Of a stretch of DNA of 64,000 nt, positions 37,866 through 42,978 are shown one piece after another. Origin of the DNA: Myxococcus guangdongensis (GTDB lineage: Bacteria > Myxococcota > Myxococcia > Myxococcales > Myxococcaceae); contig NZ_JAJVKW010000001.1 of NCBI RefSeq assembly GCF_024198255.1, forward strand, positions 186,001-250,000, given 5' to 3'. Each line of letters opens with the position of its first letter. Position 1 is the first letter of the stretch. The position numbers and the translations under genes were made by a program. A model generated the notes under the pieces. That model ran no database searches and was not told where the DNA came from. It was given only the letters and a program-made list of their open reading frames with translations.

Positions 37866-38078
37866 GGGCGAAAGGTAGGGACGCTGCATTTCCAGCGTCC
37901 GAAAGCCCGTTGAAGTCGCCCGAGGAGCAGCCAGGCGGCCCCCAACCCCCTGGAATCACGAAGCCTTTCAAAGTCAGACAGCTCCCTTTTCTGTTTTCCG
38001 ACGGGGCTGTGTCCATAGGAGCGAACACGCTGCCGCACGGCCCGCCGGGGGCCATCCGAACAGGAAGGAAGAAGGACC

Positions 38079-39071
38079 ATGCTGCGCAAGAGCCTGCTGT
38101 GTGCCGCCCTGATGCTGGTGGGTTGTGAGTCCGAGGACAAGAAGCCCCAGGACGTCGAGTCGTTCCGTCAGGGCGTGCCCTCCAAGCAGATGGTGGAGGT
38201 GTCGTCGCCGGGACCGATGGGCGAGGAGCAGGGCAAGACGTCCGCGTACTACGGCGAAGGGGAGCTGTCGGGGAACTACTTCCTCACCGCGACCGCCGCC
38301 TTCAGCATGAACAGCGCCACGCTGAGCGTGCTCGGGTTGGTGGCGGAGATCGTCAAGCACCCGCCCTCCTCCATCGAGGGAGACATCGCCGTGTGGGGCC
38401 CGCACGCCGACCCCCTGGACCCCATCTCCTGGAGGCTGACCGTCCAGCACAAGGAGGGCGACACGTATTCGTGGGTGCTGGACGCCAAGGGCCGCAACGC
38501 GCCGGACGCGAGCTTCAAGACGGTGCTGTCCGGCTCGCACACGGCGGGCGTGGATGGGGATGGGGAGCGGCTGTCGGGCTACGGCTCTGGCCAGTTCCTC
38601 GTCGACTTCGACAACGAGCGCGGGCTGCCCGGCAACGAGGAGGACGTGCAGCCGCTGGCGACCCTGGAGGTCCGCTACGCGCGCACCGGGCCGGACGCGA
38701 CGGCGTCGGTGGAGGCGGACCTCGAGTACACGGATGAGCAGGACCTGGTCACGAACACGAAGTACCGCTTCAAGCAGGCCCCGGGCGCCGGGGGTGAGCT
38801 GGACTTCGTGTCGCAGCAGGACATCGACGCGGACCCGACGCGCGCGCAGTTGGAGCGGCTGGCCATCAAGAGCCGCTGGGAGCGCAACGGGGCTGGTCGC
38901 TCGGACATCAAGCTGTCGGGCGGGGACCTCTTCGGCGAGGCCACCGTCAACGAGTGCTGGGACCAGGGACACATGAGCACCTACTACGCGGCCAGCTTCA
39001 ACCCGGTCCTCGGCTACGGGGCGGTGAGCGCCTGCGGAAGCTTCAGCACCGCGGTCTACTCCTCGTTGTGA
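38079..39071 (+). CDS. Lipoprotein A of the sigma/caspase operon
   Basis: The 330-residue lipoprotein has lipobox LVGC (Cys16). GGAAGAAGGA lies upstream of the ATG. The mature part is probably beta-rich and acidic. It shares a pattern with the lipoprotein at 42016: a VWGP motif, then LSGS, then a C-terminal stretch (RWERNGAGRSDIKLSGGDLF) that leads to ECWD and a final FNP. It lacks any enzyme motif I know. It ends 25 bases before the sigma-factor gene on the same strand, so it probably belongs to that operon. An outer-membrane or periplasmic sensor or substrate is plausible, but this is inference. Confidence 0.8.
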   Translation: MLRKSLLCAALMLVGCESEDKKPQDVESFRQGVPSKQMVEVSSPGPMGEEQGKTSAYYGEGELSGNYFLTATAAFSMNSATLSVLGLVAEIVKHPPSSIEGDIAVWGPHADPLDPISWRLTVQHKEGDTYSWVLDAKGRNAPDASFKTVLSGSHTAGVDGDGERLSGYGSGQFLVDFDNERGLPGNEEDVQPLATLEVRYARTGPDATASVEADLEYTDEQDLVTNTKYRFKQAPGAGGELDFVSQQDIDADPTRAQLERLAIKSRWERNGAGRSDIKLSGGDLFGEATVNECWDQGHMSTYYAASFNPVLGYGAVSACGSFSTAVYSSL

Positions 39072-39083
39072 CGCGGCTCGCGG

Positions 39084-39089
39084 TAGTCT
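39084..39089 (+). promoter_or_regulatory. Candidate -10 element TAGTCT of the sigma gene, implying a leaderless start
   Basis: TAGTCT ends seven bases before the GTG, so transcription would begin at the start codon itself. There is no strong -35 element, so the call is weak. Confidence 0.25.
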
Positions 39090-39096
39090 GGGGCGC

Positions 39097-39639
39097 GTGA
39101 CAGCTCCGCGCCAGCCGGCCCTCCGGGTCATCCAAGGCGGTCCCCTCCCGGACCGGCGAGACTTCCTGCGCGAGCTGTACACGCGGTACGGCGGCAGCGT
39201 GATGGGGCGCTGCCGCTATCTGTTGAAGGACGCGGCGAAGGCGGAGGACGCGATGCATGACGTCTTCGCGCGCGCCCTGAGCCACGCGGACGACTTCCGC
39301 GCGGACGCCTCGCCGCTGACGTGGTTGATGAAGATCGCCACCCACCACTGCCTCAACCAGCTGCGCTCGGAGCGCGCGGGATGGAGGCAGTGGTTCGAGC
39401 GCGACGCCGCCGCGCGCTCGGAGGGACACGGTGGCGACGGTGAGATGGAGACGCGGGATCTGGTGCGCCGGCTGCTGTCGAAGGTGGATGAGGAGACGCA
39501 GGCGGCGGTGGTCCACTACCACGTGGACGGGATGACCCTGGAAGAGGTGGCCGCGTTGCTGGGACGCTCGGTGCCCACCATCCGCAAGCGGCTGGAGCGC
39601 TTCGCCGAGCTGGGCGGAGAGGAGCTGAGGGTTCGATGA
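39097..39639 (+). CDS. ECF-type RNA polymerase sigma factor
   Basis: The 180-residue protein starts at GTG 39097. Region 2 is SVMGRCRYLLKDAAKAEDAM followed by HDVFARALSH. Region 4 is VHYHVDGMTLEEVAALLGRS with PTIRKRLERF. The family directs RNA polymerase to alternative promoters in response to envelope signals. The stop overlaps the anti-sigma ATG (ATGA), so the pair is translationally coupled. It likely controls the operon that encodes it. I could not identify the cognate -35 sequence. Confidence 0.9.
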   Translation: MTAPRQPALRVIQGGPLPDRRDFLRELYTRYGGSVMGRCRYLLKDAAKAEDAMHDVFARALSHADDFRADASPLTWLMKIATHHCLNQLRSERAGWRQWFERDAAARSEGHGGDGEMETRDLVRRLLSKVDEETQAAVVHYHVDGMTLEEVAALLGRSVPTIRKRLERFAELGGEELRVR

Positions 39640-40406
39640 GCGCGCACGAGTCGGAGTGGACACTGCGCCGCCTGCGGGCCGGCGAGCTGGCCTCCCCCGA
39701 GGCCCACCGAGTCCGGGCCCACGCGGCCGGCTGCACGACCTGCGGCGCCGTGCTGAAAGGGCTCGAGGAGAACCAGGCCCGCTTCGAGGCGGAGCTCCCC
39801 TTCGAGCGCTTCGAGGCCGGCGTCGAGCGCGCCCTGGAGCGCCAGCAGCGGCAGCCAGCCACGCGCCCTGCGCCCCGGCGCTGGGTGCCCGCGACGGTGG
39901 CCCTGGCCGCGTCGCTGCTGGTGGTGGTGCTGGCGAAGCCGCTCCTGGAGGAGGGGCCTGGGAGGAACCGGCTCAAGGGTGGCGGCGACGTGGCGGAGCT
40001 GCGCATCGGCGGCGGCACGGGTCCGCAGCGAGAGGCGCGTCCGGACAGGCCCGAGGCGCTGGAGCCCGGTGAGCGGGTGATGCTGGGCTACAAGGCGGGC
40101 GCGCACCGGTACATGGCCGCGGTGTCCGTGGATGCCATCGGCGAGGTGTCGGCGCTGCATCCGGAGTCCGGCGCCAGCGTGGCGGTGGAGCCCGGCGAGG
40201 AGGTGCACTGGCTGGAGGGGAGCTGGGAGCTCACCGGCTCGGGCGCCGAGCGCGTGGTGCTGGTGCTGGGTGACGAACCCTTCGCGGTGGAGTCGCTGGT
40301 GGAGGCGACGCGGCGTGCCTTCGCGGCGGCGGGCGGCGAGGTGGAGCGGATGGCGCCGCTCGACGTGAAGGGCGCGCAGACGCACTGGGTGCTGCTCAAG
40401 CCATGA
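39636..40406 (+). CDS. Zinc-binding anti-sigma factor with single membrane segment
   Basis: The 256-residue protein has an N-terminal zinc-finger anti-sigma motif, H29-x3-C33-x2-C36 (AHAAGCTTCGAV). One membrane segment spans about 84-100 (VPATVALAASLLVVVLA). The periplasmic domain has a DUF4384-like beta pattern (GAHRYMAAVSVDAIGEVSAL, HPESG). It should hold the adjacent ECF sigma at the membrane until a periplasmic signal releases it. Both ends overlap neighbours by four bases (ATGA). Whether the caspase-like protease cuts it is untested. Confidence 0.85.
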   Translation: MSAHESEWTLRRLRAGELASPEAHRVRAHAAGCTTCGAVLKGLEENQARFEAELPFERFEAGVERALERQQRQPATRPAPRRWVPATVALAASLLVVVLAKPLLEEGPGRNRLKGGGDVAELRIGGGTGPQREARPDRPEALEPGERVMLGYKAGAHRYMAAVSVDAIGEVSALHPESGASVAVEPGEEVHWLEGSWELTGSGAERVVLVLGDEPFAVESLVEATRRAFAAAGGEVERMAPLDVKGAQTHWVLLKP

Positions 40407-42004
40407 GCCCGTCCCTCTTCCCTCTCGGGCGGGCCCTGGGCCTGGCGCTCGCGCTCACCGTGGCCTCTGCGGCGCACGCGGACAGCCTGCGCCGCTTCGC
40501 GCTGATTGCCGGCAACGACGAGGGCGGCGACGAGACACGGCCCCTGCGCTTCGCCCGAGACGACGCGCGCAAGATGCACGGGCTGTTGGCGCGGCTGGGC
40601 GGCGTGGCGCCCGGCGACGCGAAGCTCCTGCTCAACGAGACGTCGAAGGACTTCCTCGCGGCGCTCACGGAGCTGGAGGCGCGGGCGAAGGCGGCGCAGG
40701 ACAGAGGCGAGCGCACGGCGCTGCTCGTCTATTACTCCGGCCACGCGAAGGACGGCACGCTGCGGCTGGGCAACACGCGCCTGGGCTTCGACGATTTGAA
40801 GCGCCGGCTGTCGAACGCGCCCGCGGACATCCGCATCGCGATTCTGGACTCGTGCCGCTCCGGGGCGATGACGCGCACCAAGGGCGCGCGGCGGGCCCCG
40901 GCCTTCGAAATCGAGTCCGGCGCGCCACGCGACGCGCGGGGCCTGGTCATCCTCACCTCCAGCGCGGCGGATGAGGACTCGCAGGAGTCGGACGCGCTGG
41001 GTGGCAGCTACTTCTCCCACCACCTGGCCAGCGGCCTGTTGGGTGACGCGGACCGCAGCGGCGATGGGCGGGTGACGCTGTTCGAGGCGTACTCGCATGC
41101 GTACGCGCGCACGGTGGCGGACACCGCGGCGAGCAGCGGCGGCGCGCAGCACCCCACGTTCAGCTACGACCTGGCGGGCAACGGCGACCTGGTGCTCACG
41201 GACCTGCGCGCGGGCGGCGACGGGCTGGTGGTGCCGCAGGTGGCGCCTCCGGGCATGTACTACTTCGTGGACCCGGCCGGGCTGGTGGTGGCGGAGCTGG
41301 ACAAGACGGACGGCGTGGAGCGCCGCGTGGCCCTTGCGCCCGGCACCTACCGCGTGAAGCGCCGGCTCCCGGACAAGTTGCGCATCGGCGAGGTGCAGGT
41401 GTCGCGCGGCCAGCCCGTGGTGCTGGAGGAGTCGCGCTTGAGGGACGCGCCCTTCTCCGATGATCCGGTGAAGGGCGTGAGCCTGGATGGAGGGGCGTGG
41501 TGGACCTTGGGCCTGTCCGGCGCGGTGCAGTCCTACTTCGACGCGCCCACGCGACAGTCGCTGTTCCTCTCGGTGGGCATGTTGGGGGTGGAGGCGCAGC
41601 TCCATGACTACTTCCGGCGCGACTGGGTGTGGGGCGTGGACGTGGCGATGGGCCGCAAGCAGGCGCTGCTCGACTTGCCCACGTTGAGCGGGCCGCCGTA
41701 CCGGTACTCGGTGACGAGCCTGGGCACGACGCTCGCTTCCGAGTGGCCCCAGGGACGCATCACCCCCTTCGTGGGCGCGCGAATGGCGTACCTCGTGATG
41801 CGGCGCGACTTCGAGGAGGCCGCGTATCCGGACCAGAAGTACGCGATGTTCTCGCCGGGACTCGTCGCGGGCCTGCGCTGGCAGCCCCTGCCGCGCCTGC
41901 ACGTGACGGGACGTGCCCGGCTCCACTACCTGCTCTACACCGTGGACGAGCAACGCTCCCTGGGCTTCTGGGAGCTGGGCGCGCTCCTCACCTACCGGCC
42001 ATGA
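40403..42004 (+). CDS. Secreted caspase-like protease (C14) with C-terminal outer-membrane barrel
   Basis: This is a 533-residue protein with a signal peptide (cleavage near AAHA-DS). A caspase p20-like domain follows, with catalytic His114 (YYSGHAKDG) and Cys151 in DSCRSG, plus the family's NTRLGFDDLKRRL segment. Residues 217-228 (DRSGDGRVTLFE) match an EF-hand calcium loop. A beta-sandwich linker comes next. The last 160 residues alternate like a beta-barrel (WTLGLSGAVQSYF, RITPFVGARMAYLVM) and end in ALLTYRP. The start overlaps the anti-sigma stop. The protease thus probably works on the periplasmic face of the outer membrane. The barrel call is by pattern only. Confidence 0.85.
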   Translation: MSPSLFPLGRALGLALALTVASAAHADSLRRFALIAGNDEGGDETRPLRFARDDARKMHGLLARLGGVAPGDAKLLLNETSKDFLAALTELEARAKAAQDRGERTALLVYYSGHAKDGTLRLGNTRLGFDDLKRRLSNAPADIRIAILDSCRSGAMTRTKGARRAPAFEIESGAPRDARGLVILTSSAADEDSQESDALGGSYFSHHLASGLLGDADRSGDGRVTLFEAYSHAYARTVADTAASSGGAQHPTFSYDLAGNGDLVLTDLRAGGDGLVVPQVAPPGMYYFVDPAGLVVAELDKTDGVERRVALAPGTYRVKRRLPDKLRIGEVQVSRGQPVVLEESRLRDAPFSDDPVKGVSLDGGAWWTLGLSGAVQSYFDAPTRQSLFLSVGMLGVEAQLHDYFRRDWVWGVDVAMGRKQALLDLPTLSGPPYRYSVTSLGTTLASEWPQGRITPFVGARMAYLVMRRDFEEAAYPDQKYAMFSPGLVAGLRWQPLPRLHVTGRARLHYLLYTVDEQRSLGFWELGALLTYRP

Positions 42005-42015
42005 AGGAGCGTTCG

Positions 42016-42978
42016 ATGCGATACCTGACGCCCATCTGCCTGTGTCTGGCCCTGGCCGCTTGCGGCGGCGACTTCTCCAACGACGACCTGGAGTTCCAGA
42101 ACGCCATCCCCCTGCGCGAGGACCTGATGGCGAAGGTGCTCGGGGAGGAGCAGGCGAAGGCGCGGGCCCTGCGCGCGGCGTCCAAGGTCCAGGCACTGCA
42201 GCTGGGACGGCTGGGAGAGGTGTCCAGCATCGTCGGCGACACGAGCGAGACGGGCCGAGACTTCAACGACTCGGTCGGCAACATGCTGCAGGCCATCGAC
42301 AACATCCGGACCCTGCCCGCGACCACCCGCGGCCCCAACCGCCGGGTCTGGGGGCCCTTCCTGGGCAAGAACGACATGAAGTTCGACACGCGCTTCGTGA
42401 TGACGCGTGAAGGGGGGCGCTTCGACTACCACCTCCAGCTTCGCGACGTCGGAGAGGGCGAGGACGACTGGTGGAGCTTCCTCTCCGGCTCGTTCGAGGC
42501 GAGCGGCGGCGTGCGCCGGGGGACGGGCAGCCTCATCCTCGACCTGAAGCGCTCGCGCGAGGAGGATTACCTGGGCGTGGACTTCATCGACCGGGAGGAG
42601 ATCCACTACCAGACGAAGACGTTCCCCACGCGGGTGGAGCTGGTCTGGGTCTTCGCGGAGAACACCCTGCCCCTGCCCTCGCGCTACGTGTACCGGGAGG
42701 CAGAGAGCGGCGTGGCGGAGATGACCTTCGAGCTGGTCCAGACGGACTTCGTGCTCGGGGGCCAGAAGGAGGACATCGCGCTCACCACGCGCTGGGCGCC
42801 GGACGGACGGGGCCTGGGGGCGGTGGAGATTCTGCGCGGCGACATCCCGGGCGCGAAGTACACCGAGTGCTGGGACGCCCAGGGGAAGGTGACGTTCCTC
42901 TCCCGCTCCTGGGACATCTTCAATCCGACGGAGGGCGTGCGCGCCTCCTGCCCGGACCTGTCGGCGCTGGACCGGTGA
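42016..42978 (+). CDS. Lipoprotein B of the sigma/caspase operon, paralogue of lipoprotein A
   Basis: The ATG at 42016 has AAGGAG six bases before it, a better site than ATG 42001, which overlaps the caspase stop (ATGA). The product has 320 residues with lipobox LAAC (Cys16). The body shares VWGP, LSGS and a final TRWAPDGRGLGAVEILRGD...ECWD segment ending near FNP with the lipoprotein at 38079. The two are likely duplicated genes. Its first part is helical with a charged stretch (LMAKVLGEEQAKARALRAAS) and differs from lipoprotein A. Function is unknown. It ends the operon. Confidence 0.8.
   Translation: MRYLTPICLCLALAACGGDFSNDDLEFQNAIPLREDLMAKVLGEEQAKARALRAASKVQALQLGRLGEVSSIVGDTSETGRDFNDSVGNMLQAIDNIRTLPATTRGPNRRVWGPFLGKNDMKFDTRFVMTREGGRFDYHLQLRDVGEGEDDWWSFLSGSFEASGGVRRGTGSLILDLKRSREEDYLGVDFIDREEIHYQTKTFPTRVELVWVFAENTLPLPSRYVYREAESGVAEMTFELVQTDFVLGGQKEDIALTTRWAPDGRGLGAVEILRGDIPGAKYTECWDAQGKVTFLSRSWDIFNPTEGVRASCPDLSALDR

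Follow-up and report, generated by a model that had tools for sequence, protein, structure and literature searches.

A likely caspase-driven transmembrane sigma switch in a conserved five-gene unit of myxobacteria

Introduction

Caspase homologues are widespread in bacteria, yet only a few of their substrates have been identified, and their role is usually guessed to be in cell death. What, then, might such a protease do when its gene shares an operon with a sigma factor and an anti-sigma factor? We address this question for a locus in a 64,000-nucleotide stretch of the Myxococcus guangdongensis genome (contig NZ_JAJVKW010000001.1, positions 186,001–250,000 of the forward strand; hereafter, the window). 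An open reading frame (ORF) check of the window confirmed five genes on the + strand at 38079–42978, in the order lipA, sigma, anti-sigma, caspase-barrel, and lipB, as listed in a first-pass annotation of this DNA. That annotation had proposed a self-contained surface-stress system in which the caspase cleaves the anti-sigma factor or a lipoprotein to release sigma.

We found that the five-gene unit is real, old, and conserved, and that it has two features that are new: an R-x-K-G motif common to the caspase and the anti-sigma factor, and a promoter-like element unique to the operon. The unit is likely a caspase-driven transmembrane sigma switch, the mechanism of which we infer. In the form we favor, to which we give a probability of about 40%, the five genes would constitute a private envelope-sensing switch, in which a caspase anchored in the outer membrane cuts its own anti-sigma factor at the shared R-x-K-G and so frees sigma. 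The likely substrate is here the product of the adjacent gene, and the short motif in it recurs in the loop of the protease. If this is true, caspases would serve as envelope sensors that switch genes on, which would be new for a bacterium; a further type of site-1 activation would stand beside DegS and receptor contact; and the several caspase-sigma operons kept by myxobacteria would find an explanation.

Results

The caspase and its neighboring anti-sigma factor share a motif

The fourth gene (40403–42004, +; 533 aa) encodes a caspase-like protease predicted to be secreted and to carry a C-terminal outer-membrane barrel. Its caspase domain (residues 26–270; 40478–41212, +) matches Peptidase_C14 above the Pfam cutoff (1.4e-12), and the structure model (mean predicted local distance difference test score [pLDDT] 82.8, predicted template modeling score [pTM] 0.63) combines a caspase fold with an OmpA-like eight-stranded barrel; the family match and a fold bearing a His/Cys dyad together place the protein in family C14. 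Cys151 (codon 40853–40855), singled out as catalytic in the first-pass annotation, was correctly chosen, with His114 (codon 40742–40744) as its partner. His114, Asp149, and Cys151 occur in all 87 orthologues that have residues at these positions, and Asp54 in 86 of 86. In a profile alignment, Asp54 and the Asp149 of the D-S-C motif fall on acidic positions of metacaspases. Equated by spacing with the S1-pocket residues of TbMCA2 (Asp95 and Asp211) and MALT1 (Asp365 and Asp462) given in the relevant part of PMC4357240, they predict a pocket for a basic P1 residue (Lys or Arg) and, by the same sequence comparison, assignment to C14B.

The barrel (residues 366–531; 41498–41995, +) is modeled as eight long strands, antiparallel like those of OmpA and NspA. 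Foldseek matched it to NspA (4.8e-9, TMt 0.78) and OmpA (9fzc; 7.0e-9, TMt 0.74), and a profile comparison with NspA gave 4.1e-4. From the model, we predict that the caspase is anchored in the outer membrane through this domain.

The sigma gene (39097–39639, +; 180 aa, GTG start) encodes an extracytoplasmic function (ECF) sigma factor, in which sigma-70 regions 2 and 4 are the only ones matched above curated cutoffs: Sigma70_r2 (5.9e-15; 55.3 bits against a cutoff of 24), Sigma70_r4_2 (9e-10; 38.5 against 25.7), and TIGR02937 (3.2e-19; 69.1 against 42.9). Downstream lies a predicted membrane anti-sigma factor (39636–40406, +; 256 aa) with one transmembrane segment (TM) and an H-x3-C-x2-C motif in its N-terminal part, the mark of zinc-binding anti-sigma (ZAS) proteins. 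The motif's ligands, H29, C33, and C36, are nearly invariant in our alignment of relatives (A2), and the protein is predicted to be a zinc-binding inhibitor of the partner sigma. In the Pfam scan, the window protein matched zf-HC2 at 0.0032, below the cutoff, and did not match DUF4384; among the 34 members of A2 (E ≤ 0.1), zf-HC2 was found in 20 and DUF4384 in 24. It is because of these matches in relatives that we predict a zinc domain inside, the TM, and a periplasmic DUF4384-like domain outside.

About 12 residues past the TM, the anti-sigma factor carries R112-L-K114-G115 (codons 39969–39980, +), the proposed cleavage site. The lysine is kept in 88 of 88 orthologues, the glycine in 87, and the arginine in 83; within A2, R112 and K114 are, together with A91/A92, the sole invariant positions, the zinc ligands being less conserved. 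The caspase bears R158-T-K160-G161 (codons 40874–40885, +) in a disordered loop after its catalytic Cys, which we propose as a self-processing site. R158, K160, and G161 are invariant (87 of 87 orthologues with residues there), and K and G stand exactly at Cys+9 and Cys+10 in all 86 orthologues matched by pattern. The motif falls in residues 155–177, the sole stretch beyond the first 27 residues modeled with a pLDDT below 50. A fungal metacaspase is described, in the relevant section of PMC9622860, as cleaving itself at Lys263 and Arg307, with Lys263 lying 25 residues past Cys238.

Related proteins served as controls. The source genome (G000; 11.2 Mb) holds further sigma/anti-sigma/caspase cassettes (L079, L080, and L081; L numbers denote loci and G numbers genomes), an anti-sigma/caspase pair (L078), and a remote cassette (L084). 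All 33 caspases read from paralogous cassettes have KG in the loop, at Cys+9 in 32 and at Cys+11 in L080. For caspases outside such cassettes, a phylum-wide search for the C14 family returned 30 loci with 24 readable loops; of the 20 readable caspases whose fetched flanks gave no match to a sigma or anti-sigma factor, none had KG at Cys+9. A sigma and/or anti-sigma match is present at six of the 30 loci, and three of these (L277, L280, and L281) have KG at Cys+9. In L084 (7190–8920 and 8917–9687), RG replaces KG in both partners, exactly at Cys+9 in the caspase, one suggestive case of matching change. Judged on sequence, the R-x-K-G match is strong within this caspase clade and falls short of proof of cutting.

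A promoter-like element is private to the operon

A candidate operon promoter, TTTTCTGTTTT-n10-TGTGTCCAT, lies upstream of lipA at 37987–38016 (+). Alignment and a phylogenetic footprint show that the two blocks are conserved at this place, and pattern searches of genomes show how rare they are elsewhere. Each of the 13 genus genomes searched has a single site for the strict pattern, and it lies upstream of lipA; in G001 and G006 the operon that follows it is decayed. One further hit, in G037, lies elsewhere, and the reversed control gave none. When up to three mismatches were allowed, there was still one site per genome in 10 of 10 genomes. A relaxed form precedes lipA at 55 of 62 loci, as against 1 of 3100 shuffles, and is absent from reversed and reverse-complement controls; before the other genes it is found at 3 of 69 (sigma), 0 of 69 (anti-sigma), 0 of 73 (caspase), and 0 of 66 (lipB) loci. 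At L150, which has no lipA, the element stands before sigma instead, and only 1 of 47 paralogous loci (L222) has the relaxed form.

The simplest reading of these patterns is a dedicated sigma-promoter pair, with the partner sigma presumably reading the candidate promoter and the operon mainly regulating itself. Deep conservation of gene order, together with an element that precedes this operon alone among the genus genomes searched, bears out the earlier description of the unit as self-contained.

The gene order is old, and its losses are few

Confinement of the order to a single strain had been named beforehand as one outcome that would count against the unit; the order instead recurs widely. 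The best caspase matches in a set of 61 genomes gave 39 loci, of which 36, including one with a split caspase (L065), have the five genes in order; the exceptions are a second, degenerate copy in G033 (L061), a locus cut by its contig (L066), and L076. Among 76 loci from named records, a set that overlaps the first because several of its loci come from the same genomes, the complete order is found on one strand in 54. Thirteen of the other 22 stop at a contig edge where a gene is missing, and nine depart: no lipA match precedes sigma in L150, L156, L161, and L176; lipB is unmatched in L160; lipA follows lipB in L177 and L179; and L185 and L187 are without lipoproteins. The full order is present in Myxococcus, Pyxidicoccus, Corallococcus, Citreicoccus, Archangium, Hyalangium, and Anaeromyxobacter, among others.

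Spacing within the unit is mostly tight across the conserved loci. In the window, both reported ATGA overlaps are present, between sigma and anti-sigma (39636–39639) and between anti-sigma and caspase (40403–40406). The ATG of lipB at 42016 lies 11 bases past the caspase stop, as had been noted, and near relatives keep this gap; an alternative in-frame ATG at 42001 would give a third ATGA overlap.

Full-length orthologues of the caspase were found in 22 of 27 genus genomes searched. In G005 (L065:7212–9502), an IS66-like element, so labeled from a reading of its transposase ORFs and not from a family search, interrupts the caspase gene, while the other four genes are open; it has an apparent short target duplication and amounts to a natural caspase knockout. 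G001, G006, and G018 share a deletion that fuses lipA to the second half of sigma; their anti-sigma ORF is open and their caspase is in pieces. G023 retains a lipA fragment only, with no lipB match and a best sigma match of 43%. These last four genomes, which have lost the unit, are small, at 9 Mb. Decay of the caspase alongside loss of sigma fits a joint function, the events being few.

Two paralogous predicted lipoproteins open and close the unit

The outer genes, lipA (38079–39071, +; 330 aa) and lipB (42016–42978, +; 320 aa), encode predicted lipoproteins without a Pfam family above cutoff. As previously suggested, they are paralogues: each finds the other's place by tblastn (21%–29% identity, best E 4e-19), both contain VWGP, LSGS, and ECWD, and in a joint alignment of 53 sequences (A3), C16 (the lipobox Cys), N84, W112, G171, G266, C285, and W286 are invariant. 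A profile built from both finds no other match in the source genome (E ≤ 0.01).

Discussion

How the switch would work, and what else the unit could be

In the mechanism we favor, the caspase would respond to a disturbance at the surface, which the barrel or the pair of lipoproteins may detect, by cleaving itself at K160-G161 and cutting the anti-sigma factor at K114-G115. General intramembrane and cytoplasmic proteases would complete degradation of the anti-sigma factor, and the freed sigma would activate the promoter-like element ahead of its own operon; raised expression would then replenish the lipoproteins, the protease, and the brake. More generally, and more tentatively, a caspase tethered to the outer membrane on its periplasmic side may make the site-1 cut in a transmembrane anti-sigma factor, using the same R-x-K|G sequence for self-activation and sigma release, and myxobacteria may hold a family of caspase-driven transmembrane switches, each with its own sensor; the five-gene version would then be private and self-feeding, its promoter occurring once in the genome.

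Several observations weigh against this mechanism. Three caspases near sigma/anti-sigma genes (L268, L279, and L282), of a divergent, ACHSGSGKS-like type, have no loop KG; these may form a second lineage of such switches. One of them, L279, forms a sigma/anti-sigma/caspase cassette with VKGS after the anti-sigma TM and no KG in the caspase loop. For 13 of 47 anti-sigma paralogues, the fetched stretch holds no caspase match, and 11 of the 11 readable ones keep K/R-G after the TM. The L077 caspase has a loop KG and no adjacent anti-sigma match. At the position three before G, the partners show no covariation; the window caspase has SGHA where readable non-cassette C14 proteins show GHG; and the fungal metacaspase cited above still matured after its basic cleavage residues were changed (same section of PMC9622860). 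The insertion in G005 indicates that, for a short time at least, the unit can survive the loss of an intact caspase, and the promoter-like element may belong to another regulator. That the caspase cleaves the anti-sigma factor, as first suggested, is favored by the motif common to both proteins and by the pocket predicted to take a basic P1 residue, and disfavored by anti-sigma factors that keep K/R-G with no caspase neighbor and by L279; we infer cleavage on this balance. The other half of that suggestion, cleavage of a lipoprotein, found no specific support.

The alternative that survives best, which we nonetheless consider somewhat unlikely, is that the caspase is an output: another site-1 protease would free sigma, and the caspase would act on proteins of the surface or periplasm, the lipoproteins possibly among them, or serve in cell death or development. 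Targets of ECF sigma factors are often encoded behind the sigma gene in its operon, which is where the caspase gene sits. L207, a near duplicate of the L080 sigma/anti-sigma pair without a caspase in the source genome, indicates that such sigmas can work without one, as do the 13 of 47 paralogous anti-sigma factors lacking a nearby match. A role of Myxococcus caspase homologues in autolysis has also been deemed conceivable (Asplund-Samuelsson 2012, PMC3501461, in the section concerned). Caspase output would, however, leave unexplained the K-G shared with the anti-sigma factor and found in none of the 20 caspases without sigma or anti-sigma nearby, and none of the lipoprotein columns of A3 that are invariant or nearly so holds a Lys or Arg.

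A more doubtful alternative is that R-x-K-G is structural in each family, marking the start of the DUF4384-like fold on one side and a loop of the caspase clade on the other, so that the match is coincidental and the genes are merely co-inherited. The motif could be such a mark because KG or K/R-G persists in the unpaired anti-sigma factors, in L077, and in the anti-sigma factor of L279. The caspase copy, however, lies in a stretch modeled with very low pLDDT, and R112 and K114 are matched in constancy by A91/A92 alone among anti-sigma positions, the zinc ligands varying more. Least probable is binding through R-x-K-G without productive cutting, with a pseudo-substrate keeping the caspase idle or the caspase acting as a scaffold between outer membrane and anti-sigma factor: one motif in both proteins also fits competition for a single active site, and in the RgpB gingipain zymogen a prodomain Arg sits in the active site (PMC4357240, part concerned), yet the fully conserved catalytic dyad argues for catalysis in at least one step.

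Relation to known systems

Pairing of caspase and sigma genes is already known; we count it as such because four of the five caspase homologues of M. xanthus were reported in sigma-70 operons in 2012, alongside such operons in Myxococcus, Anaeromyxobacter, Haliangium, Sorangium, Ralstonia, and Fibrobacter (Asplund-Samuelsson 2012, PMC3501461). Those operons resemble ours in joining a caspase-homologue gene to a sigma-70 gene. In its relevant section, the paper does not describe the barrel, an anti-sigma DUF4384 domain, the lipoprotein pair, a shared R-x-K-G, or a unique promoter, and its discussion considers cell death. In the open-licence PMC literature searched, we found no published description of a five-gene unit with a barrel-anchored caspase, of the R-x-K-G common to caspase and anti-sigma factor, or of the private promoter; the earlier claim that this exact unit is undescribed fits that literature, with the qualification that its caspase-sigma core was reported in 2012.

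Four other systems invite comparison. In the Cas7-11/Csx29 (TPR-CHAT)-Csx30-CASP-sigma system, as outlined in the pertinent part of PMC10028731, a caspase-like protease likewise cuts an inhibitor of an ECF-like sigma factor, but the trigger is an RNA-activated CRISPR complex and the protease is of the CHAT type, whereas here we predict a secreted C14 protease with an outer-membrane barrel and a membrane-spanning anti-sigma factor. Membership in that system was ruled out: no CHAT-type domain was found, Peptidase_C14 being the only Pfam match in the window caspase. In Escherichia coli, the site-1 protease DegS is an inner-membrane-anchored serine protease, a difference from the predicted outer-membrane caspase. 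RseA, its substrate family, is absent from the Pfam matches listed for the window anti-sigma factor and the other 33 members of A2, so that we did not assign the unit to the RseA/DegS type. The DegS-RseP-RseA-RpoE pathway shares with the proposed switch an envelope signal, a site-1 cut in a transmembrane anti-sigma factor, and release of an ECF sigma factor (same part of PMC10028731). FecIRA cell-surface signaling also joins an outer-membrane barrel protein, an inner-membrane anti-sigma factor, and an ECF sigma factor, but its barrel is a TonB-dependent transporter, whereas the one here is predicted to be small, eight-stranded, and protease-bearing; as none of the five proteins had a TonB-dependent receptor or FecR-family Pfam match, the unit was not placed there either. 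Finally, the orthocaspase MaOC1 is a prokaryotic caspase homologue that cleaves a regulator encoded beside it, but the regulator belongs to a toxin-antitoxin pair, and the relevant section mentions no sigma factor (PMC7935541).

Related loci and records

Some neighboring loci are of interest in themselves. L080 and L207 of the source genome are similar sigma/anti-sigma/lipoprotein cassettes, with a caspase gene between in one only and VRGG in both anti-sigma factors. L206 (6459–7667) and its relatives L233–L237 and L241 hold sigma/anti-sigma pairs (RSKG or RIKG) without a caspase match, and the next gene at L206 resembles a bare outer-membrane barrel protein. In the source genome, the gene for a paralogous caspase with the loop YKGG (L077:6620–8881) is the last in a row of genes that we call TonB-like, ExbD-like, and TPR-type from a reading of their ORFs, not a family search. 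At L268, L279, and L282, the divergent caspase-like gene lies directly behind that for the sigma factor.

Two records bear a Comamonas title: L118 (BNCN01000006.1, titled Comamonas sp. KCTC 72670), which holds a full five-gene myxobacterial unit at 80% identity, and P0012, likewise labeled "Comamonas sp. JC664"; both are probably mislabeled or mixed with a myxobacterium. Among the matches listed, the closest caspase is that of Myxococcus sp. AB025B (97%), and the Stigmatella aurantiaca orthologue (P0058) is named "ActD" in UniRef.

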